A stretch of 64,000 nt of DNA from Thiomonas sp. FB-6. Lineage in GTDB: Bacteria; Pseudomonadota; Gammaproteobacteria; Burkholderiales; Burkholderiaceae_C. The translations under genes and the position numbers were made by a program. Every line of letters begins with the position of its first letter. Position 1 is the stretch's first letter. A model generated the notes under the pieces. That model was not told the origin of the DNA and made no database searches. It was given only the letters and a program-made list of their open reading frames with translations. Of the stretch, positions 23,369-31,978 are shown in pieces. Where the stretch lies: assembly GCF_000377645.1 (NCBI RefSeq), contig NZ_KB898478.1:62001-126000 (forward strand). Reading direction: 5' to 3'.

Positions 23369-24433
23369 TCACTCGTCGGAGTCGGCGCCGGTCAGGTACC
23401 AGCTGGCCTGCGCCAGCGGCGCCGGCGTGCCGGGCGCCAGCGCGAGGATCATGGGCTGCGCGCCGGCCTCGCGCAGGCGCAAGCCGGCCGCGCGCAGCCC
23501 GGCCAGCAGCCACGGCGGGCCGCCGCATTGCATCGAAAGGCTGCGCAGCCCCTGCGCCTGGGCCTTGCGCGCGGCCAGGCGCAGCAGCTGCGCGGCCAGC
23601 CGGGCCGAAGGCTGCTGCACCAGCAGGTCGCGCACGTGCATCGCGGCGCCCTCGATCTCGCAGGCGGCGTAGCCGGCCAGGCGCCCCGAACGCGCATCGG
23701 CCAGCACGACGAAGCGCGTGCGGTGCCAGGCGCGCGGCTCGAAACGCCAGCGCAGAAAGGCCAGGTCGCGCCGGCCCAGCACGCAATCTCCCAGGGATGC
23801 GCGGGCGCGGGCCCAGAGCTCGTCGAAGCGCGCATCCGGGCCTTCCAGCCACTGCTCCTGCAAGGAACGGCCGGCGCTCAGCAGCCCCGCCGCGTGGCGC
23901 AGCGAGAAGACCGCGTCCAGCCCGGCGCCCACGGCCCGGCGCAACACCAGGGGCCAGCCGGCCGGAAGGTAGGCCTCGCTGCGCAACGCCCGCGCGTGCC
24001 GGCCCATGCCGGGCAGCACCTGGTAGCCGGCGCGCCGAACCACCGGCAGCGACTTGGCGTTCGGGAAGCCGTACAACAGCTCGTGGCGCGCCAGGCCCTG
24101 CTCCAGCGCGGCGCGCTGCAGCAGCAAGGCGGGGTACAGCGTGCGGTGGTGGCGGTCCACCGCGAAGTCGCCCATCAGCGCGGCGTCCAGTTCGCGGCCC
24201 TGCCAGCCCAGGTGCCGGCCGCCCAGGCCGGTGACGCCGACCACCCGCTGATCGTGCACCAGCAGCAGCAGGCGCGGCTGGCCCGCGGGGTTGCGCAGGT
24301 AGAACCAGTCCAGCTTGAGCGGCCTGCGTTCGGCGTAGCCCAGGGCCTGGCTCCACAGCTCGACGACCGCCGCGGCCTGCTCGGGCAGGCGCGCCGGCTC
24401 CACGAGATAGCCCGAGGCCGGGGCCTCAGCCAC
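23369..24433 (-). CDS. Two-domain GNAT family acyltransferase-like protein
   Basis: A 354-residue protein with two GNAT-like halves. The first half has LVHDQRVVGVTGLGGR and a likely cofactor region DFAVDRHHRTLYPALLLQRA followed by LLYGFPNAKSLPVVRRAGY; the second half repeats the theme more weakly (FVVLADARSGRLAGYAACEI). Proteins of this build occur near polysaccharide and lipid-modification genes. The GTG start at 24433 has GGAGG six bases upstream and overlaps the preceding gene by eight bases, so it is the last gene of the cluster that begins at 30994. A role in acylating the cluster product is inference. The stop lies 15 bases from the convergent oxidoreductase stop. Confidence 0.75.
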   Translation of the reverse strand: MAEAPASGYLVEPARLPEQAAAVVELWSQALGYAERRPLKLDWFYLRNPAGQPRLLLLVHDQRVVGVTGLGGRHLGWQGRELDAALMGDFAVDRHHRTLYPALLLQRAALEQGLARHELLYGFPNAKSLPVVRRAGYQVLPGMGRHARALRSEAYLPAGWPLVLRRAVGAGLDAVFSLRHAAGLLSAGRSLQEQWLEGPDARFDELWARARASLGDCVLGRRDLAFLRWRFEPRAWHRTRFVVLADARSGRLAGYAACEIEGAAMHVRDLLVQQPSARLAAQLLRLAARKAQAQGLRSLSMQCGGPPWLLAGLRAAGLRLREAGAQPMILALAPGTPAPLAQASWYLTGADSDE

Positions 24434-25340
24434 CTGGCGCCTCCGCCGCGCGGCGCGCCAGCAGCACGCGCTCGTGGCCCTGCGCGTCGAGCACCGCGCG
24501 CACCTCGTCGTAGCGGCGCTCGCGGCGCGCCAGCTGCAGCATGGCGGGGCCCTGGCCCAGGCCTACCTCGACGCACAGCCAGCCTCCGGCGCGCAGCAGG
24601 CCCGGGGCCTGGCGCAGCAGGCGCATCAGGATGCCCACCCCGAAGGCGCCGCCGTCGAAGGCCATCGCCGGCTCGAAGCCGATGATCTCACGGGGCATGG
24701 AGTCCAGGCGCGCGCTGGAAATGTAGGGCGGCGCCGAGATCAGCAAGTCCACCGCGCCGGCCCAGTCGGCGCCCTCGAAGGGCGCCAGCAGGTCGCCCTC
24801 GTGCCACTGCACGCGCGCATCCAGGCCCAGCAGCGCGGCGTTCTCGCGCGCCAGCTCCAGCGCCTGCGCCGACAGGTCGGCGCCGTGCACCCGTGCCGAG
24901 GGCAGCGCGCGCGACATGGCCAGCGCCAGGTTGCCGCTGCCGCAGCACACGTCGATGCAGCAGGGCGCGTCGCCGGCGGCTTCCAGCAGCAAGGCGCGCG
25001 CCGCCTCGCCCAGCATTTCCGTCTCGCGCCGCGGGATCAAAGCGCTGGGACGGGCCAGCAGCTCCAGGTCCATGAAGCGCTGGCGCTCCAGCAGGTAGGC
25101 CAGCGGCTCACCGGCCAGGCGGCGCGCCACCAGCGCGTCCAGGCGCTCCAGCCCGGCGGCGTCCAGCTCCGGCGGCTCCTGCAGTTGCGCCGCCTGCACC
25201 GACAGCTGCAGCCCCGCGGCGCGGCACCACAGCGCGCGCAACGCCGACTCGGGCGTCTCCTCGGGCTTGTCGGGAAGGGTCTGCAGCGAAGCCTGCAGGC
25301 GTTGCAGAAGCTGCCCGGAATGCGCGCCGCCGAAGTTCAC
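24426..25340 (-). CDS. PrmC/HemK-like N5-glutamine methyltransferase with altered NPPY motif
   Basis: A 304-residue SAM-dependent methyltransferase of the PrmC/HemK family, normally modifying the GGQ glutamine of release factors. The PrmC N-terminal region is recognisable (RLAGEPLAYLLERQRFMDLE; ALIPRRETEML) and so is motif I (DVCCGSGNLALAMS). The catalytic NPPY motif is APPY: Ala203 replaces the asparagine that contacts the substrate glutamine amide (codon GCG at 24732-24734). GTG 25340 overlaps the upstream stop codon as GTGA, and AGGAG lies nine bases upstream. Membership in an ACP/ligase operon and loss of the key Asn suggest a substrate other than release factors. A housekeeping prmC should exist elsewhere. 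Confidence 0.78.
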   Translation of the reverse strand: MNFGGAHSGQLLQRLQASLQTLPDKPEETPESALRALWCRAAGLQLSVQAAQLQEPPELDAAGLERLDALVARRLAGEPLAYLLERQRFMDLELLARPSALIPRRETEMLGEAARALLLEAAGDAPCCIDVCCGSGNLALAMSRALPSARVHGADLSAQALELARENAALLGLDARVQWHEGDLLAPFEGADWAGAVDLLISAPPYISSARLDSMPREIIGFEPAMAFDGGAFGVGILMRLLRQAPGLLRAGGWLCVEVGLGQGPAMLQLARRERRYDEVRAVLDAQGHERVLLARRAAEAPGG

Positions 25341-26320
25341 GCCTGCGTCTCCTGCTCGCCGCCCTCGAGGCGCAGCGCCGGCCAGTGCAGGTAGGCCGTG
25401 CCGCGCCGCTTGGCGTCGATGTCGGAGTACACATGGCGCGCCTGCGCCGCGTCGATGCCCAGCGCGCCGGCCAGCTGCTCCGGCGCCACGCCGTGGTCGC
25501 GCGCCCACAGCGCCAGGTCCATCTGCGGCCAGGCGAGCGCGAAATAGAACTCGTCCTGCCCCTGCGCCAGGCTGTAGGTGTCGGTGGTGGGCTGGGCCTC
25601 GCAGACCTCGCGCGGCAGGCCGAGGTGGCGCGCCAGCGCGTACACCTGGGTCTTGTACAGGTGGGCGATGGGCTTGAGGTCGGCCGCGCCGTCGCCGTTC
25701 TTGACGAAAAAGCCCTGGTCGAACTCCAGCCGGTTGGGGGTCCCCAGCACCGCGTAGTTCAAGGCGTCGGCGTGGTGGTATTCGAGGTTCTTGCGTACGC
25801 GCTGCTTGAAATTGGTGGCCGCCACGATGCGCAGGTAGGCCTGCAGCGGCAGGCGGCGGCGCCGCAGCTGGCCTTGCGGATCCTGCACCACCAGGTCGAA
25901 GAAGTGCACGCGGCCGGCCGCGCCCTCGGCGATGGCCAGCTTGCTTTTCCAGCCGGGGCCGTAGTCGGGGAACAGCTCGCGGATGGCCTGGTCGCGCCGC
26001 TCGTAGCAGCCCAGGCCCTCCAGCGCCGGCGTGATGTCCTCGTGCAGGCAGCGCAGCCCGAGTTCGCGCGCCACCTGCTCGCCCAGGCGCGTCGACGCCG
26101 CGCCCGATTCGCGCTCGGGCATGAGCAGCGCGACCACCCGCTGCGCTCCCAGCGCGCGCGCCGCGAGAGCCGCGCACACCGAACTGTCGACCCCGCCGGA
26201 CAGGCCCAGCACGAGGCCGCGCCGGTGCATGCGCGCCAGCGAGGCGCGCAGGAATTCCCCGATGCGACCGAGCTCCGCGTCGCAGTCGAGTTCCAGCACC
26301 CGCGGGGACAGTTCCTGCAC
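25337..26320 (-). CDS. NAD-synthetase-like ATP-pyrophosphatase in the ACP/ligase cluster
   Basis: A 327-residue member of the NadE PP-loop ATPase family. The PP-loop is LGLSGGVDSSVCAAL near residue 40, and later NadE hallmarks are GTPNRLEFDQGFFVKNGDGA and LYKTQVYALARHLGLP. It lacks the glutaminase domain and carries about 50 extra residues (FFDLVVQDPQGQLRRRRLP) between the PP-loop part and the GTPNR part. The end of the domain (QPTTDTYSLAQGQDEFYF) differs from the usual E. coli-type sequence. GTG 26320 with GAGG six bases upstream begins just after acp. Known family chemistry is amidation of an adenylated carboxylate; acting on a pathway intermediate rather than on NAD is a hypothesis based on context. 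Confidence 0.78.
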   Translation of the reverse strand: MQELSPRVLELDCDAELGRIGEFLRASLARMHRRGLVLGLSGGVDSSVCAALAARALGAQRVVALLMPERESGAASTRLGEQVARELGLRCLHEDITPALEGLGCYERRDQAIRELFPDYGPGWKSKLAIAEGAAGRVHFFDLVVQDPQGQLRRRRLPLQAYLRIVAATNFKQRVRKNLEYHHADALNYAVLGTPNRLEFDQGFFVKNGDGAADLKPIAHLYKTQVYALARHLGLPREVCEAQPTTDTYSLAQGQDEFYFALAWPQMDLALWARDHGVAPEQLAGALGIDAAQARHVYSDIDAKRRGTAYLHWPALRLEGGEQETQA

Positions 26321-26328
26321 GGCGCGCC

Positions 26329-26595
26329 TCAGGCCGGCTGCCCGGTCTCGCGCTTGCGCTGCACGAAGGCGGCGATCGCGTCCAGGGAGTCCAGGTTCTC
26401 GGGCACCATCTCGGCGTCGAGCACGCGCACGCCGAAGGACTCCTCCAGGTACAGGATCAGCTCCAGGATTCCCGTGGAATCCACGATGTGTCGGTCGAGC
26501 AGCGAGTCGGCGTCGCCGAACTCCAGGTCCTGCGCGCCCATGAGGAAATTCTCGCGGATGTAGCCGCGCACCTGCTGCTGGATGGTCGTGGCCAT
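26329..26595 (-). CDS. Acyl carrier protein, dedicated type
   Basis: An 88-residue carrier protein. The phosphopantetheine attachment site is Ser40 in RHIVDSTGILELILYLEE, where the usual DSL is DST. The first helix (VRGYIRENF) and last helix (LDAIAAFVQRKRE) fit the fold. It is not the fatty-acid ACP, whose sequence is more acidic and lies in the fab operon. ATG 26595 is favoured over 26601 by distance to GGGGGG. It sits between the AMP-forming ligase and the NadE-like gene; most likely it carries the acyl or aminoacyl group loaded by that ligase. Confidence 0.88.
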   Translation of the reverse strand: MATTIQQQVRGYIRENFLMGAQDLEFGDADSLLDRHIVDSTGILELILYLEESFGVRVLDAEMVPENLDSLDAIAAFVQRKRETGQPA

Positions 26596-26634
26596 CGTCA
26601 TGCCCCCCGTGGTTGCATCCCCGCGCCGCCGTCC

Positions 26635-28179
26635 TCAGAGCAGCGAGGCGCGGCGCACTTTTCCATTGTCCGTCTGCGGCAGCTCGGGAACGAATTCCAC
26701 CTGCCGCGGCACCATGAAACTCTCCAGGCGCGCCTGGCAGTGCCGCAGCACCGCGCGCTGGTCCAGCACCTGTCCGGGCGCGAGCACCACGAAGGCCTTG
26801 ATCGCCTCGCCCAGCAGTTCGTCGGGCACGCCGACCACCGCCGCCTGCTGCACGCCGGCCAACTCGTGCAGCACGTTCTCCACCTCGCGCGGGCTGACCT
26901 TCTCGCCGCGGCTCTTGATGATGTCGTCCTTGCGCGCGACGAAATACAGCCAGCCTTCCTCGTCGCTGCGGAACACGTCGCCGGTGTACAGCACCATCTC
27001 TCCCGGCAGCGGCCCCGGGCGCAGGCGCTCGGCGCTGGCCTGCGGCTGCTTCCAGTAGCCGCGCATGACGTGGCTGCCGCGCACCACCAGCTCGCCGGTG
27101 CTGCCGTGCGGCAGGCGCCGGCCCTGCTCGTCGACCAGCCACAGTTCCTCGTTGGGCATGCCGCGGCCCACGCTTTGCGGGCGGATGTCCAGCTGCTCGG
27201 GCGGCAGGTAGCTCACGCGCTTGCATTCGGTGAGCCCGTACATGGAAAACAAGGTGGCCTGCGGGAAAGCGTCGCGGATGCGTCGGATATGCGACACCGG
27301 AAGCGCCGCCGCGGTGTTGGTCACCAGGCGCAGGCTGCGCAGATCGAAGCTGGACAGGTCCATGCCCAGCAGCATGGCGAACATGGTCGGCACGCCGGCG
27401 AACACGGTGGCGCCCTCGCGCGCCATGTCCTGCAGCACGCGCGCCGGATAGGTGAAGGAGCGCTCCAGCAGCACCGTGGCTCCCAGCGCGAAGGCCATCA
27501 GCACCTGGTACAGGCCGTAGTCGAAGGCCAGCGGGAGCGCGCAGGTGATCACGTCGTGCTCGTGCAGCCCCAGGTAGCCGCTGACCGACCCCAGTGCGCT
27601 GAGCATGTTGCGGTGGCTGAGCATCACGCCCTTGGGCCTGCCGGTGGAGCCGGAGGTGTAGAGGATGGCCGCCAGGTCCTGGTCGATGGTCGCGCCTTCG
27701 TCCGGGGCCCGCGCCTGCGCGCCCTCGGCTGCCGGCGGGTAGGCGAGCTGCCCGGGCAGCGCCTGGGCCGGCGCCGGGTAGCCGTCGTCGGCCAGCCAGC
27801 AGTTGCGCACGCCCGGCGCCAGGGCCAGCGCCTGCCGCGCCACCTCGGCCAGCGCGTGCTGCGTGACCAGCGCCGCGGCCTCGGCGTCGGCCAGCACGTA
27901 GGCCAGCTTGTCGGCCTTGGTCAGGGTGTTCACCGGCATGAACACGGCGCCGATGCGCAGCACCGCGTAGAGGGCCGCGACCATGTGCTCGGAGTTGTCC
28001 AGGAACAGCGCCACGCGGTCGCCGCGGCCGATGCCCTGGGCGCGCAGGCTGGCAGCCAACGCGGCGCTCAGCCCGTCGATGTCGGCGTAGCTGCTGCGGC
28101 GACCCTCGCGCACCAGCGCGGTCTTGTCCGGAATGCGCCGCACCTGCGTCTCGAAAGTCTGGTGCAGCAGATGGGCCAT
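26635..28179 (-). CDS. AMP-forming acyl-ACP/acyl-CoA ligase
   Basis: A 514-residue class I adenylate-forming enzyme. Motifs in order: the AMP-binding loop LYTSGSTGRPKGVMLSH near 172, YGLTE (within MYGLTECKRVSYLP) near 318, the hinge YTGDVFRSDEEGWLYFVAR, and the C-terminal catalytic lysine region DNGKVRRASLL. It activates a carboxylic acid as an adenylate and would transfer it to the adjacent carrier protein. Ligases of this type accompany asparagine-synthetase-like genes in exosortase/exopolysaccharide loci, but no exosortase is in this window. The substrate is not evident. No clear Shine-Dalgarno precedes ATG 28179. Confidence 0.88.
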   Translation of the reverse strand: MAHLLHQTFETQVRRIPDKTALVREGRRSSYADIDGLSAALAASLRAQGIGRGDRVALFLDNSEHMVAALYAVLRIGAVFMPVNTLTKADKLAYVLADAEAAALVTQHALAEVARQALALAPGVRNCWLADDGYPAPAQALPGQLAYPPAAEGAQARAPDEGATIDQDLAAILYTSGSTGRPKGVMLSHRNMLSALGSVSGYLGLHEHDVITCALPLAFDYGLYQVLMAFALGATVLLERSFTYPARVLQDMAREGATVFAGVPTMFAMLLGMDLSSFDLRSLRLVTNTAAALPVSHIRRIRDAFPQATLFSMYGLTECKRVSYLPPEQLDIRPQSVGRGMPNEELWLVDEQGRRLPHGSTGELVVRGSHVMRGYWKQPQASAERLRPGPLPGEMVLYTGDVFRSDEEGWLYFVARKDDIIKSRGEKVSPREVENVLHELAGVQQAAVVGVPDELLGEAIKAFVVLAPGQVLDQRAVLRHCQARLESFMVPRQVEFVPELPQTDNGKVRRASLL

Positions 28180-28222
28180 GGGATCGGGAACCGGGTGGGT
28201 GCGACCGGCGAGTGTACGGAAT

Positions 28223-30175
28223 TCAGGCGCCGGGGTCCTCCCGGCTTCGCGGGGGGCGGCCCAGCACGAACTGCCGGTGCAGCAGCATGGTGGACAGCAC
28301 GCCGACGAAGGCCATGTTGTCCGCGAAGCCGATGGCGCGCCCGGCCCGGCATTTGGCGAGCAGGCGCGCCACGCCCGCCGCGTCGAAATAGCCCGCAGCC
28401 TTCAGCGACTCCGCGCTGAGCAGTTCGGCCACCCAGTCCAGCTCGGCGCCGTTGTCGAAAAAACACCGGCTGTCCGGCGCGCGGTAGGGCTGCTTGGAGC
28501 GCGAGAGCACGGATTCGGGCAGCAGCCCGCGCATCGCGCGCTTGAGCAGCCACTTCTCGTTCAGCCCCATGAGCTTGTAGCGGGCGGGCAGGCGCGCCGC
28601 GAACTCGATCAGGTGATGGTCGAGGAATGGGAAACGCCCTTCCACCGCGTGCGCCATGGCCATGCGGTCTCCCTGCGTGCACAGCAGGTACTGCGACAAC
28701 AGCGTGGTGGACTCGATGTACTGGTCCTGCTGCAGCGGGCCCCAGGCGCCGAACGCGGCCGGCAGGCCGCGCGCCAGATCGCCGGCCACGTCGCGGCCCC
28801 GCAGGGTGTCGCGCAGCTCGGGGGAGAACAACTGCCAGCAACGCTGGGTGGTGCTCCAGCGGGTCATGTGCCCGTAGCCGGGGCGGCCGAGCTGCTCCGG
28901 GTCGGCGCGGAAGAAGCCGCGCGCCAGCGCGGCGCTGGCGGTCGGCGAGTGGGCGAGCTAGGGATACAGGCGCCCCAGCAGGCTGGCACGCCAGGCGGAC
29001 TGTGGTGCGCGCGCCATGAAGCGCCGCACCCGCGCTTCCTTGAACAGGTCGTAGCCCCCCAGCACCTCGTCAGCCCCCTCCCCGGTGAGCACGACTTTGA
29101 AGCCGGCGGCGTGCACCTGCCGCGCCAGCAGCATCAGCGGCACCGGGGCGGTGCGCAGCATCGGGGCCTCGGCATGCCAGACCGCCTGCGCGAAGGCCTG
29201 CGCGATGTCGCGGTCGCTGCAGCGCCAGGACTCGTGCTCGCAGCCGAGCTCGCGCACCAGCTGCTGCTGCTGTTCGCCTTCGTCGAACTCGGGATCGTCG
29301 AAACGGATGGAGAAGGTGCGCAGATGCCGCGCGCCGCCGCGCCTGGCCAGCGCCGCCACCGCCGCCGAATCCAGCCCGCCGCTGAGGTAGGCGCCCACGG
29401 GAACGTCGGCACGCAGGCGCTGGTCCACGCTGGCTTGCAGGCGTTGCAGCAGTTCCTGCGCGCATGCGTCCGCGTCGAAATCCCGCGCCGGGTCCTCGCG
29501 CCGCGGAAAACTCCAGTCCCAGTAGCGCCAGGCGCGCTCGCCCTGTTCGTCCACGGCCAGGCAGCTGCCGGGCTCCAGGCTGCGCACCCCCTCGAAGGGG
29601 CTGTGCCCGGCCAGCGGCCCCCAGGTGGTGAACACCTCCGCCAGCACCTGCGGATCCAGGCGCGGGCTCCACCCCGGCATGGCCGCCAGCGCCTTGACCT
29701 CGGAGGCGAAACCCAGGCGCGAACCGTCGCGGCGCAGGAACAGCGGGCGAATTCCCGTGCGGTCCCGGGACAGCAGCAGGCGCCGCCGGCGTGCGTCCCA
29801 CAGCGCGAAGGCGAACTGGCCGTCCAGGCGCTCGGGCAAGGCGTCGCCCCAGGCCTCGTAGCCGTGCACCAGCACCTCGGTGTCGCAATGGGTGGCGAAC
29901 ACATGGCCCAGGGCCAGCAGCTGGCGCCGCAGCTCCGCGTGGTTGTAGATCTCGCCGTTGAAACTCACCCACACGCTGGCGTCCTCGTTGCCCATCGGCT
30001 GGGCGCCCGCGTTCGGGTCGATCACCGCCAGGCGGGTATGCCCGAGCACGGCGGGGCCGCAGGCGCGCACGCCCCGGCCGTCGGGCCCGCGGTGATGCAG
30101 CGCGCGCACCATGGCCCCGACCACCTCGGCCGAGGGCGCCTGGCGGAAATCGAGCAGGCCGGCGACGCCGCACAT
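28223..30175 (-). pseudogene. asnB: Asparagine-synthetase-like amidotransferase interrupted by an amber codon
   Basis: A class II glutamine amidotransferase plus ATP-dependent synthetase of about 650 residues. Cys2 (MCGVAGLLDF) is the glutaminase nucleophile, and the PP-loop is YLSGGLDSAAVAAL near 262. At 28958-28960 a TAG codon (position 406) interrupts the frame after GRLYP; the same frame then continues for 244 residues with family sequence (MAMAHAVEGRFPFLDHHLIE; LNEKWLLKRAMRGLLPESVL). This is a nonsense change, not a frameshift. A tyrosine here (TAC or TAT) would be one base away. Neither half alone is a complete enzyme: the first lacks the end of the synthetase domain. It could be a recent pseudogene, a suppressed stop or a sequence error. 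Fifteen bases separate it from the upstream SDR gene. Confidence 0.8.
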
Positions 30176-30190
30176 GAGGCGGGACGCCGC

Positions 30191-30994
30191 TCAGTAATGA
30201 ATGCTGCGCGGCGCGCCGCCGCCCACGGCGATGGCGTCGCCGTTGATCGCGCGCGAACGCGGCGAGCACAGGAAGGCCACCACGTCGGCCACCTCGGAAG
30301 CGTCCACCAGGTGGCGGATGGAGTTCTGGGCGGCCATCTCCTGCTCGATCACCTCGGGTTCGACGCCGCGCGCCTTCGCCTTCGCCGCCACCAGCGCGGG
30401 CGTGCGCTCGGTGCGCGTGGTGCCGGGGTGCACCACCGAGCTCTGGATGCCGAAGCGGCCGAGTTCATCGGCCATGTTCTTGGTCAGCGCGGACACCGCG
30501 ACATTGCGCACGCTGCCCACCGCGTGCCCGGTCTGGCGCGCGCCCAGGCCGCTGACGTTGACGATGCGCCCCCAGCCGCGCTCGCGCATGCCCGGAACCA
30601 CCGCCTGCGCGCAGCGCAGGTAGCCCATGACCTTGGTGTCCACCTCGCCCAGCAGGTAGTCGGCGCGGATCTGCTCGATGGTCGGCGGCGCCGCGAAGCC
30701 TGAAGGCTCGGCAGCGGCGTTGACCAGGATGTCGATGCCGCCGCCGAGCAGGCGCTCGGCCTCGCGCACCGCCGCGAGCACCTGCTGCTCGTCCGTGGTG
30801 TCGGCGCGTACCGCCACCACCGTGGCGGCGCATTGCGCGGCCAGTTCGGCGGCCGCCTCGCGCAGCGCCGGCTCCTGGCGCGCCAGCAGCGCCACCAGCG
30901 CGCCTTCCTGCGCCAGCGCCCGCGCCACGGCCTTGCCGATGCCCCGGCTGCCGCCGGTGACCAGCGCGCGCTTTCCCGAAAGTTGCAGATCCAT
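30191..30994 (-). CDS. SDR family protein lacking the catalytic Tyr-Lys pair
   Basis: A 267-residue Rossmann-fold protein of the short-chain dehydrogenase/reductase family, first gene of the cluster. The nucleotide loop TGGSRGIG is near residue 14, and NAAAEPSG replaces the usual NNAG. The serine of the catalytic triad may be kept (NVSG), but where YxxxK is expected the sequence reads AVGSVRNVAVSALTK, so Tyr and Lys are both absent. The end is conventional (VAFLCSPRSRAINGDAIAVGGG). I recall other SDRs with the same GSVRNVA pattern, so this looks like a subfamily and not decay. It may bind NAD(P) without standard redox chemistry. A 13-base direct repeat sits just upstream. Confidence 0.85.
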   Translation of the reverse strand: MDLQLSGKRALVTGGSRGIGKAVARALAQEGALVALLARQEPALREAAAELAAQCAATVVAVRADTTDEQQVLAAVREAERLLGGGIDILVNAAAEPSGFAAPPTIEQIRADYLLGEVDTKVMGYLRCAQAVVPGMRERGWGRIVNVSGLGARQTGHAVGSVRNVAVSALTKNMADELGRFGIQSSVVHPGTTRTERTPALVAAKAKARGVEPEVIEQEMAAQNSIRHLVDASEVADVVAFLCSPRSRAINGDAIAVGGGAPRSIHY

Positions 30995-31096: not shown

Positions 31097-31978
31097 TCAG
31101 GCGCGCTGCGCCAGCAGCCGGTGGCGCAGCGAAGGGATCTGGTTCAGCGCCAGGCCGCCCACCACCATGGCGGCGGCGGCGAGCTTCCAGGCCTGCAGCG
31201 GCTCGTGCAGCACCAGCGCGGCGGTGAGCATCCCGCTCACCGGCACCAGCAGCGTGAACGGCGCGATCTGCGCAGCGGGATAGCGGCGCATCAGCATGGC
31301 CCACAGGCCGAAGCCGAACAGCGTGGCGGGGTAGGCCTGGAAGCCCACCACCAGCCAGGACATCGCGTCCATGTCGCGCAGCGCGCGCAGGTCCGTGCCG
31401 GCGCCCTCGAGCAGCACCGACAGCAGCAGCAGCGGAGGCACCGCGTACAGGCTGGCCCAGGACGCCAGCGCCACCGCGTTGACCGGGCCCAGGCGGCGCG
31501 CCATCACGTTGGCCACCGCCCACGACGCGGCGGCGACGATCAGCAGCAACAGGCCGACCAGCGAGGTGCGCTGCTGCAGGTTCCAGGCCACCACGCCCAT
31601 GCCGGCCAGCGCGATCGCCCCGCCGAGCAGTTGTACCGGGCGCGCCTTCTCGCGCAGCAGGGCCCAGGCCAGCGCGATGGTGAAAAAGGCCTGCAGCTGC
31701 ATGACGATCGACGCCAGGCCGGCCGCCATGCCCAGTTTCAGGCCCGTCATGAGCAGGCCGAACAGCACCGCGAACTGCGCGATCCCCCACGCGGCCACGC
31801 GCCACCAGGGCAGCGCCGGCCGGCGCACCAGCAACACCACGGGAAAGGCGGTGAAGGCAAAGCGCAGGGCACAGAACAGCAGCGGCGGCAGGCCGCGCAG
31901 CCCCAGCTTCATGACGACGAAGTTGCTGCCCCAGATGACCACCGTCAGCAGGGCCAGCAGCAGATCGCGGATTCGCAT
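31097..31978 (-). CDS. EamA/DMT superfamily transporter
   Basis: A 293-residue integral membrane protein with about ten hydrophobic segments in two similar halves, as in EamA-type drug/metabolite transporters. Recognisable stretches are LLLALLTVVIWGSNFVVMKL at the start and YPATLFGFGLWAMLMRRYPA in the second half. Members export amino acids or metabolites; the family does not allow a substrate call. It follows xthA after nine bases and is probably co-transcribed with it. Confidence 0.87.
   Translation of the reverse strand: MRIRDLLLALLTVVIWGSNFVVMKLGLRGLPPLLFCALRFAFTAFPVVLLVRRPALPWWRVAAWGIAQFAVLFGLLMTGLKLGMAAGLASIVMQLQAFFTIALAWALLREKARPVQLLGGAIALAGMGVVAWNLQQRTSLVGLLLLIVAAASWAVANVMARRLGPVNAVALASWASLYAVPPLLLLSVLLEGAGTDLRALRDMDAMSWLVVGFQAYPATLFGFGLWAMLMRRYPAAQIAPFTLLVPVSGMLTAALVLHEPLQAWKLAAAAMVVGGLALNQIPSLRHRLLAQRA

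Follow-up and report, generated by a model that had tools for sequence, protein, structure and literature searches.

A conserved gene cluster of Thiomonas sp. FB-6 that may encode a carrier-protein pathway for a modified aminoacyl group

Results

The window, by which we mean the whole 64,000-nucleotide stretch of Thiomonas sp. FB-6 DNA that was analysed, carries seven genes that clearly belong together and that we tentatively read, with somewhat less than even confidence, as a pathway in which a modified aminoacyl group would be assembled on a carrier protein and then passed to an amine. The genes lie on the minus strand from position 30994 to position 23369 and are separated successively by 15, 43 and 33 bases, an overlap of 4 bases (the NadE-like gene with the ACP gene), a gap of 26 bases, and an overlap of 8 bases. 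These coordinates and gaps agree with the single run of seven genes described in the initial annotation, and the domain assignments made there (SDR, AsnB-type, AMP-forming ligase, ACP, NadE-like, PrmC/HemK-like, and GNAT) were upheld. No promoter-like match was found at the cluster, and four terminator-like matches were counted against 2.1 expected, an uninformative excess.

Four of the genes, encoding the AsnB, ligase, ACP, and NadE-like proteins, form a core cassette that ranges from Thiomonas-like bacteria to nitrogen-fixing rhizobia. The search for conserved neighbourhoods that had been proposed at the outset found these four genes syntenic in relatives, and at 67 of 97 loci among the matches listed all four fall inside a stretch of 6 kb. 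The 97 loci were obtained from 103 by removing L066, L073, L116, L091, L121, and L057, which come from duplicate genomes or a near-identical strain; duplicates were retained in the counts given below for 93 and 77 rows. Loci were anchored on the NadE-like gene, one of the searches supplying its best 80 matches, and those with unequal contig ends or cut short were kept. Because of this anchoring, the loci give no measure of the frequency of the other genes where the NadE-like gene is missing, and the reverse tests consisted of a ligase search of 299 family genomes and a check of split loci. A close ligase (at least 487 bits) was present in 17 of the 299 genomes, all 17 of which carry the NadE-like gene (hypergeometric 8e-27, ignoring kinship); as judged from their size and handles, the NadE-like and ligase searches covered the same 299 genomes. 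The grouping of the genes exceeds chance, and homology and co-conservation define both the gene set and its co-occurrence. Three Thiomonas-like genomes carry the pathway in two pieces, with asnB and the GNAT gene coupled at a second locus, apart from the ligase, ACP, NadE, and PrmC genes, and the same-genus genome G158 has neither the NadE-like gene nor a close asnB. The gene upstream of asnB at the split loci encodes MoaA-type domains (radical SAM and molybdenum cofactor synthesis C) and was set aside.

The AMP-forming ligase (26635 to 28179, minus strand) looks, from its sequence, like a VinN-type adenylation enzyme whose substrate would be an amino dicarboxylic acid resembling aspartate, and not like a generic acyl ligase. 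When the ligase core was compared with solved structures, VinN was the best match (198.6 bits) and aligned with no gap through the TECKR loop; LgrA scored 159.4 (two domains summed), the beta-aminoacyl-ACP synthetase 7dq5 117.2, and malonyl-CoA synthetase 109.9. With the full-length protein, LgrA, which has two matching domains, scored above VinN (317.9 versus 263.3). The available part of the VinN literature describes a pocket of D230, F231, S299, K330, and R331, in which D230 serves the amino group, a bulky residue occupies position 231, and K330 and R331 lie in a shortened loop. These positions (VinN numbering inferred from the PDB chain position via a constant offset of 16) align with D220, Y221, T289, K320, and R321 of the ligase, the Asp, Lys, and Arg being identical and Tyr and Thr standing for Phe and Ser. 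Among the matches listed, and with duplicates counted, Arg is found at position 321 in 93 of 93 cluster ligases, of which 47, that of S. meliloti among them, have the D..KR form. Since 45 of the 87 non-redundant ligases among the matches listed are not of the D..KR form, amino-acid use is not required of all members, a point against our preferred reading. The D..KR label changes at least four times on the ligase tree.

The ACP (26329 to 26601, minus strand) has a DSTG phosphopantetheine site that, serine included, is unchanged in all 93 relatives aligned (duplicates included; among the matches listed), and on the strength of homology the acid is probably loaded onto this protein. The best NCBIfam match of the ACP, the ornithine-lipid ACP, is one of several observations consistent with a lipid pathway, in which the ACP would receive a fatty acid from the ligase and the GNAT would make an N-acyl amino acid or a similar lipid. 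The ligase scored 417.6 on a long-chain-fatty-acid ligase NCBIfam subfamily (cut-off 476), the S. meliloti protein SMb20650 is called a predicted long-chain ligase in the available part of its report, and the predicted fold of the tandem GNAT (23369 to 24433, minus strand, GTG start) resembles N-myristoyltransferase as well as Eis. We nevertheless regard a lipid product as improbable: the ligase pocket is VinN-like with its Arg present throughout, the ACP match (51.8 bits) falls far below its cut-off of 130, and SMb20650, in the same partly available source, did not revert any of the reported phenotypes of the fadD mutant. The GNAT fold bears out the two domains proposed earlier for this protein; five of 25 rows (L066, L073, L117, L078, and L075) were left out of its alignment.

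The NadE-like PP-loop amide synthetase (25337 to 26332, minus strand; exact start codon unsure) contains an inserted segment and matches NF002048 (PRK00876.1) at 467.9 bits, above the cut-off of 313. Its predicted structure has the fold of an NH3-dependent NAD synthetase (2e18; E 2.1e-16, TMt 0.76), and the PP-loop residues S45, G46, G47, D49, and S50 are invariant in 18 sequences. The AlphaFold model is of only moderate quality (mean pLDDT 80.4, weak loops). NF002048 is named NAD(+) synthase; a name is no proof of function, and it counts against our preferred reading.

The PrmC/HemK-like methyltransferase (24426 to 25310, minus strand; start codon unsure) scored 196.5 bits on TIGR03534 (PrmC), narrowly below the cut-off of 199.1, and 176.1 on the wider HemK family TIGR00536, above the cut-off of 115.5. 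APPY replaces NPPY in this protein, and the first letter of the motif in 42 relatives among the matches listed is N in 22, A in 10, and L in 10. The gene is coupled to the ligase by co-conservation: a PrmC gene lies near 39 of 42 D..KR ligases but near none of 45 others (counted over the 87 non-redundant loci whose ligase was aligned, among the matches listed; kinship was weighed by the change count on the ligase tree only). The family names NAD(+) synthase and PrmC, together with the NadE-like score above the NF002048 cut-off, could suggest housekeeping genes that are adjacent by chance. The likelihood of such an arrangement is negligible, given the conserved synteny, the presence of a separate housekeeping NadE (C1:209376-210140, 231.8 bits) and PrmC (C1:238366-239139, 257.3 bits) in the genome, and the divergence of the cluster NadE, which carries an insertion and, where the two proteins align, shares 26% identity with the housekeeping NadE. 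The cluster genes are thus not the sole copies, a point that the initial annotation had singled out for checking, and housekeeping NAD and PrmC roles were rejected.

The SDR-family protein (30191 to 30994, minus strand) is accessory. Its best NCBIfam match, PRK06125.1, lies below the cut-off, and Ser and Val are found at the spacings of the catalytic Tyr and Lys; in three orthologues Ser is kept in all three and the second position is Val in two and Ile in one. An orthologue was found only in L063-L065 of the 103 loci, among the matches listed, which rules out the SDR as a core gene and marks it as a local addition. Of the three proteins said earlier to deviate at key residues, the SDR and the PrmC-like protein do so; for AsnB, apart from the stop described below, this was not confirmed, its Cys2 and SGGLDS showing no deviation on comparison with aligned relatives.

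The AsnB frame is divided by a single in-frame TAG (28958 to 28960, minus strand), which was absent from the initial annotation, into ORFs of 405 and 214 amino acids. The N-terminal part (28961 to 30175, minus strand) has the glutaminase domain with Cys2 and the PP-loop SGGLDS, and the C-terminal part (28223 to 28867, minus strand) is a separate ORF starting from ATG 28867. Among the matches listed, duplicate genomes included, the position of the stop is occupied by a sense codon in all 77 relatives aligned; Cys2 is kept in 76 of the 77, the remaining one having a gap. This stop may damage the pathway in this strain, which counts against our preferred reading. That the stop is genuine and the cluster decaying in this strain is a serious but doubtful possibility, compatible with the other readings and weighed apart from them; an error in the assembly has roughly the same likelihood as a real stop, and in each of the seven genes the codons differ from those of close relatives mainly at the third position (for AsnB, 61/44/201 at the three codon positions versus L063), so that any gene loss would be very recent.

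The AsnB parts scored 312.1 and 88.9 bits on TIGR03108 (exosortase A amidotransferase), and three intact AsnB relatives scored 400.7, 446.7, and 404.7, all below the cut-off of 816.9; the ligase scored 471.4 on TIGR03098 (exosortase A-associated ligase; cut-off 592.35). XrtA-family membership was rejected for both proteins by these cut-offs, as was the NAGGN amidotransferase TIGR03104 for AsnB (303.7 and 74.9 bits; cut-off 570.1). The genome has no TIGR02602 match, so the earlier remark that no exosortase is visible here holds genome-wide. The accompanying statement that similar sets occur beside exosortase and exopolysaccharide genes fits the finding that, of nine neighbour families of EPS/XrtA type, three or more occur at 16 of 97 loci, among the matches listed.

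That neighbourhood, and the good, if sub-threshold, TIGR03108 scores of the AsnB proteins, point to a second use of the amidating enzymes: AsnB and/or the NadE-like protein would act on a sugar uronic acid, giving a uronamide as WbpS does, and the ligase, ACP, PrmC, and GNAT would separately make an aminoacyl group and attach it to an amine of that sugar. WbpS/WbqG members are tied to uronamide formation in the partly available literature. We hold this reading to be unlikely, while giving it real weight, as 81 of the 97 loci have fewer than three EPS/XrtA-type families (sugar-nucleotide genes were not scanned in every neighbour) and the NadE-like gene tracks the ligase.

Discussion

In the pathway that we prefer, the VinN-like ligase would recognise an amino dicarboxylic acid resembling aspartate as a beta-amino acid, adenylate it with one carboxylate left free, and load it onto the dedicated ACP. 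The free carboxylate, presumably held by Arg321 while in the ligase, would then be amidated by the AsnB-type enzyme, which uses glutamine, by the NadE-like enzyme, which uses ammonia, or by both; the PrmC-like enzyme would N-methylate the amino (or amide) nitrogen, and the tandem GNAT would move the completed acyl group off the ACP and onto an amine, in all likelihood that of an amino sugar in a surface glycan or in a glycan precursor. We infer the aspartate-like nature of the acid, all chemistry after loading, the order of the steps, the acceptor, and the product. The earlier proposal of an ACP-bound acid that is amidated and/or methylated and then transferred fits these findings, except that the SDR is a local addition and AsnB is interrupted here. 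The presence of two amide-forming enzymes for one carboxylate, the lack of a recognisable acceptor gene, and the absence of the exosortase family from the genome count against the pathway.

A broader proposal, which we offer as speculative and rather unlikely, is that the cassette is a widespread amidation pathway in which a NadE relative, taken out of NAD synthesis, and an AsnB-type enzyme amidate aspartyl-ACP (or another dicarboxylyl-ACP where the ligase is of another type). An N-methylated isoasparagine-like group would be put on cell-surface amino sugars, and in exosortase A clusters a decarboxylating sibling set would play the corresponding part. If true, this would supply a substrate and a chemistry for a gene set recorded as NAD(+) synthase, asparagine synthase, and acyl--CoA ligase, and would cover the ACP/ligase pair of the S. 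meliloti megaplasmid. It would also suggest that the exosortase-associated ligase and decarboxylase genes make an aminoacyl group, and so bear on the compound whose attachment to PEP-CTERM proteins has been proposed in a partly available source.

The asnB-ligase-ACP-nadE set as a whole was not found described in the accessible part of the open-licence PubMed Central literature. The same four core genes and ligase type occur as asnB-acp-ligase-nadE on the S. meliloti megaplasmid (L058, and L057 on pSymB of another strain); there the ACP precedes the ligase, no PrmC, GNAT, or SDR of the window's kinds was found in the stretch. In the window AsnB is interrupted. From its gene content, its location on pSymB, and the acp-ligase cotranscription described in the available part of the report, this locus is presumably that of SMb20651 (ACP) and SMb20650 (ligase), the relatives of the cluster proteins that have been studied.

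The exosortase A EPS sets (TIGR03098 ligase, TIGR03099 decarboxylase, and TIGR03108 amidotransferase) contain ligase and AsnB families related to those of the cluster, and in some relatives the cassette is embedded among XrtA-type genes. They differ in that the window proteins fall below the family cut-offs and the genome lacks an exosortase; eight XrtA-type ligases read FDAG and TEAFR, whereas the window ligase has the TECKR loop. Ligase rows L152 and L170 were excluded from that reading, as the wrong frame had been read. The XrtA-type ligase gene was followed by a gene for the TIGR03099 PLP decarboxylase at three of three loci scanned, and in this sibling set the free carboxylate would probably be removed, as by VinO, where in the cluster it would probably be amidated. 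The Bordetella O-antigen may offer a further parallel to the cluster.

In the Wbp/Vim pathway of type IX secretion, as far as the available accounts describe it, uronamide formation is the task of the AsnB-type enzyme WbpS, and VimA attaches an amino acid to the amine of a sugar, so that AsnB-type amidation and amino-acid transfer to an amine are combined as proposed here; unlike the cluster, those accounts mention no ligase/ACP or NadE-like gene. In vicenistatin biosynthesis, from the portion of the literature available, VinN is a 3-methylaspartate adenylation enzyme that loads the stand-alone ACP VinL, and VinO is a PLP decarboxylase. The VinN/VinL/VinO system thus resembles the cluster in its stand-alone adenylation enzyme and stand-alone ACP, as well as in the pocket Asp, Lys, and Arg, and differs in that the seven genes here include no decarboxylase or polyketide synthase and have AsnB, NadE-like, PrmC-like, and GNAT genes instead.

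Cluster organization and an interrupted AsnB gene

A re-reading of the gene positions confirmed that the cluster (30994-23369, minus strand) comprises seven genes with gaps of at most 43 bases or overlaps, and searches of Pfam and NCBIfam returned the domains assigned in the initial annotation. That annotation had overlooked an in-frame TAG at 28958-28960 (minus strand), which interrupts AsnB and splits it into ORFs of 405 aa and 214 aa. A sense codon occupies this position in all 77 aligned relatives, and AsnB is uninterrupted in three near relatives (L063-L065), which share 87-92% identity for SDR, AsnB, ligase and NadE. Because the substitutions relative to L063 and L065 lie mostly at third codon positions in every cluster gene, the stop is either a very recent mutation or an error of assembly.

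On the same strand and upstream of the SDR gene, stopping some 100 bases short of it, is a gene of the EamA/DMT transporter type, recognised by eye (31097-31978); its position is kept in L063-L065, the gene is present also in L066, and its product is possibly an exporter. Beyond the window, a 1713-aa open frame with two phosphopantetheine-binding domains (G000:C8:127491-130805 of the same assembly; the match starts about 1.5 kb past the right end) possibly encodes an NRPS/PKS.

The Thiomonas sp. FB-6 assembly (4.2 Mb, 79 contigs) carries elsewhere a canonical NadE gene (231.8 bits) and a canonical PrmC gene (257.3 bits), so that the NadE-like and PrmC-like genes of the cluster are not the only copies, and another full-length Asn_synthase match, free of stops, lies on contig C28. 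Neither an exosortase nor, at E 1e-5, a second GNAT copy was detected in this genome. The cluster NadE has an insertion and is 26% identical to the housekeeping NadE over the aligned part; a structure model and fold search predict the fold of an NH3-dependent NAD synthetase, and the protein scores over the cut-off of NF002048, named NAD(+) synthase in NCBIfam.

Conservation of the gene set

Among 299 family genomes, 18 encode the NadE-like protein (E 1e-20), as do 15 among 398 phylum genomes (E 1e-60), both counts including the window's own genome. Removal of six duplicates from 103 loci (17 neighbourhoods, the best 80 among the matches listed in genome contigs, and 6 plasmid loci) left 97, mainly from Pseudomonadota, with a few from assemblies labelled Myxococcota, Krumholzibacteriota or Chloroflexota. 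The neighbourhood proved to be conserved: within 6 kb of the NadE-like gene were ACP in 87 loci, ligase in 86, AsnB in 70, PrmC in 39, GNAT in 23 and SDR in 3, and the four core genes (AsnB, ligase, ACP and NadE-like) occurred together in 67, in 59 of them all on the NadE strand. In eight loci, some on short contigs, the NadE-like gene stood without any other core gene. Conversely, ligases scoring 487 bits or more were present in 17 of the 299 family genomes, all 17 of which carry the NadE-like gene; the ligase of the eighteenth NadE genome is divergent (33% identity). Another seven genomes lack a NadE-like match, and the ligases they have are all more distant (344-358 bits). Two distant ligases, one from a NadE-less genome and one from a genome with both kinds, scored over the cut-off of TIGR03098, the XrtA (exosortase A)-associated ligase, and a TIGR03099 decarboxylase gene (PLP) directly follows the ligase in the three loci scanned. 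We regard the case for the gene set and functional unity of the cluster as strong. Between PrmC and the NadE-like gene of one relative (L048, 8257-8537) lies a fragment that resembles the C-terminus of a second ligase plus an ACP and looks like the leftover of a duplication.

In G165, G049 and G244, whose ligases group with those of Thiomonas intermedia and its kin, ligase, ACP, NadE and PrmC are present with no AsnB nearby. All three genomes have a close AsnB at a separate locus (56-57% identity, 754-761 bits with the G240 protein as query), directly adjoined by a GNAT with 40-42% identity to that of the window, and G158, of the same genus and lacking the NadE-like gene, has no AsnB above 252 bits. 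Since split loci keep AsnB beside GNAT and G158 has no close AsnB, both genes appear to be part of the pathway even where they lie apart from its other genes. An SDR membership, as initially assumed, could not be upheld, since orthologues of this gene occur in only three loci; some cassettes are accompanied by other SDR genes and by KAS III genes. KAS III-like genes accompany the cassette in L049, L052, L053, L092, L100, L104, L110, L114 and L132, several of which also have GNAT and SDR genes, a hint that the chain of the loaded acid is extended.

Ligase specificity and the proposed methylation and transfer

VinN is the nearest match to the substrate-binding core of the window ligase (198.6 bits). 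According to two reviews, the substrate of VinN is 3-methylaspartate, which is recognised as a beta-amino acid in a pocket shaped by D230, F231, S299, K330 and R331 and is loaded on VinL, a stand-alone ACP. The window ligase has D220, Y221, T289, K320 and R321 at these positions, the correspondence being inferred from PDB chain numbering that differs by a constant 16. In VinN, R331 holds the free carboxylate of the substrate. Position 321 is Arg in all 93 cluster ligases, and 47 have both D220 and K320 (the D..KR type); at 220 the others mostly carry S, A, G, N or T. From these residues we read the cluster ligases as all loading a dicarboxylic acid, one that would also bear an amino group in the case of the D..KR type; on the strength of homology, aspartate-like loading by the window ligase is probable.

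A PrmC gene lies near 39 of 42 D..KR ligases (the exceptions are L058, from S. meliloti, L115 and L123), whereas none was found near the 45 others. This coupling does not reflect a single inheritance, because on the ligase tree the D..KR label must have changed four times or more, and it points to a PrmC-like enzyme whose substrate depends on the amino group. The first letter of the NPPY motif varies among 42 relatives (N in 22, A in 10, L in 10), which speaks against release-factor methylation by the A and L forms. The GNAT model (pLDDT 92.4) is that of a tandem GNAT of the Eis/N-myristoyltransferase type (Z 20.7-22.8 among the 50 matches listed), an assignment of fold alone and not of donor or acceptor. 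The amide, methyl, transfer and glycan steps of the pathway are those that we infer.

Comparison with surface glycan loci and known systems

In 16 of the 97 loci, three or more of nine EPS/XrtA-type neighbour families occur. When one representative of each family was scanned, those for chain length (TIGR03007), deacetylase (TIGR03006), export (TIGR03027) and glycosyltransferase (TIGR03013) scored over the cut-off; those for tyrosine kinase (TIGR03018), outer-membrane protein (TIGR03016), ATPase (TIGR03015) and O-ligase (TIGR03097) scored under it, and the ninth gave only a Pfam acetyltransferase match. The annotated S. meliloti stretch contains no EPS/XrtA-type genes. In this relative, according to PMC7232532, the ligase SMb20650 and the ACP SMb20651 are cotranscribed, SMb20650 acylates SMb20651 in E. 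coli, and SMb20650 does not replace FadD. The XrtA-type ligases differ from the D..KR type in that they share its Asp and Arg but lack the Lys (8 of 8 readable rows).
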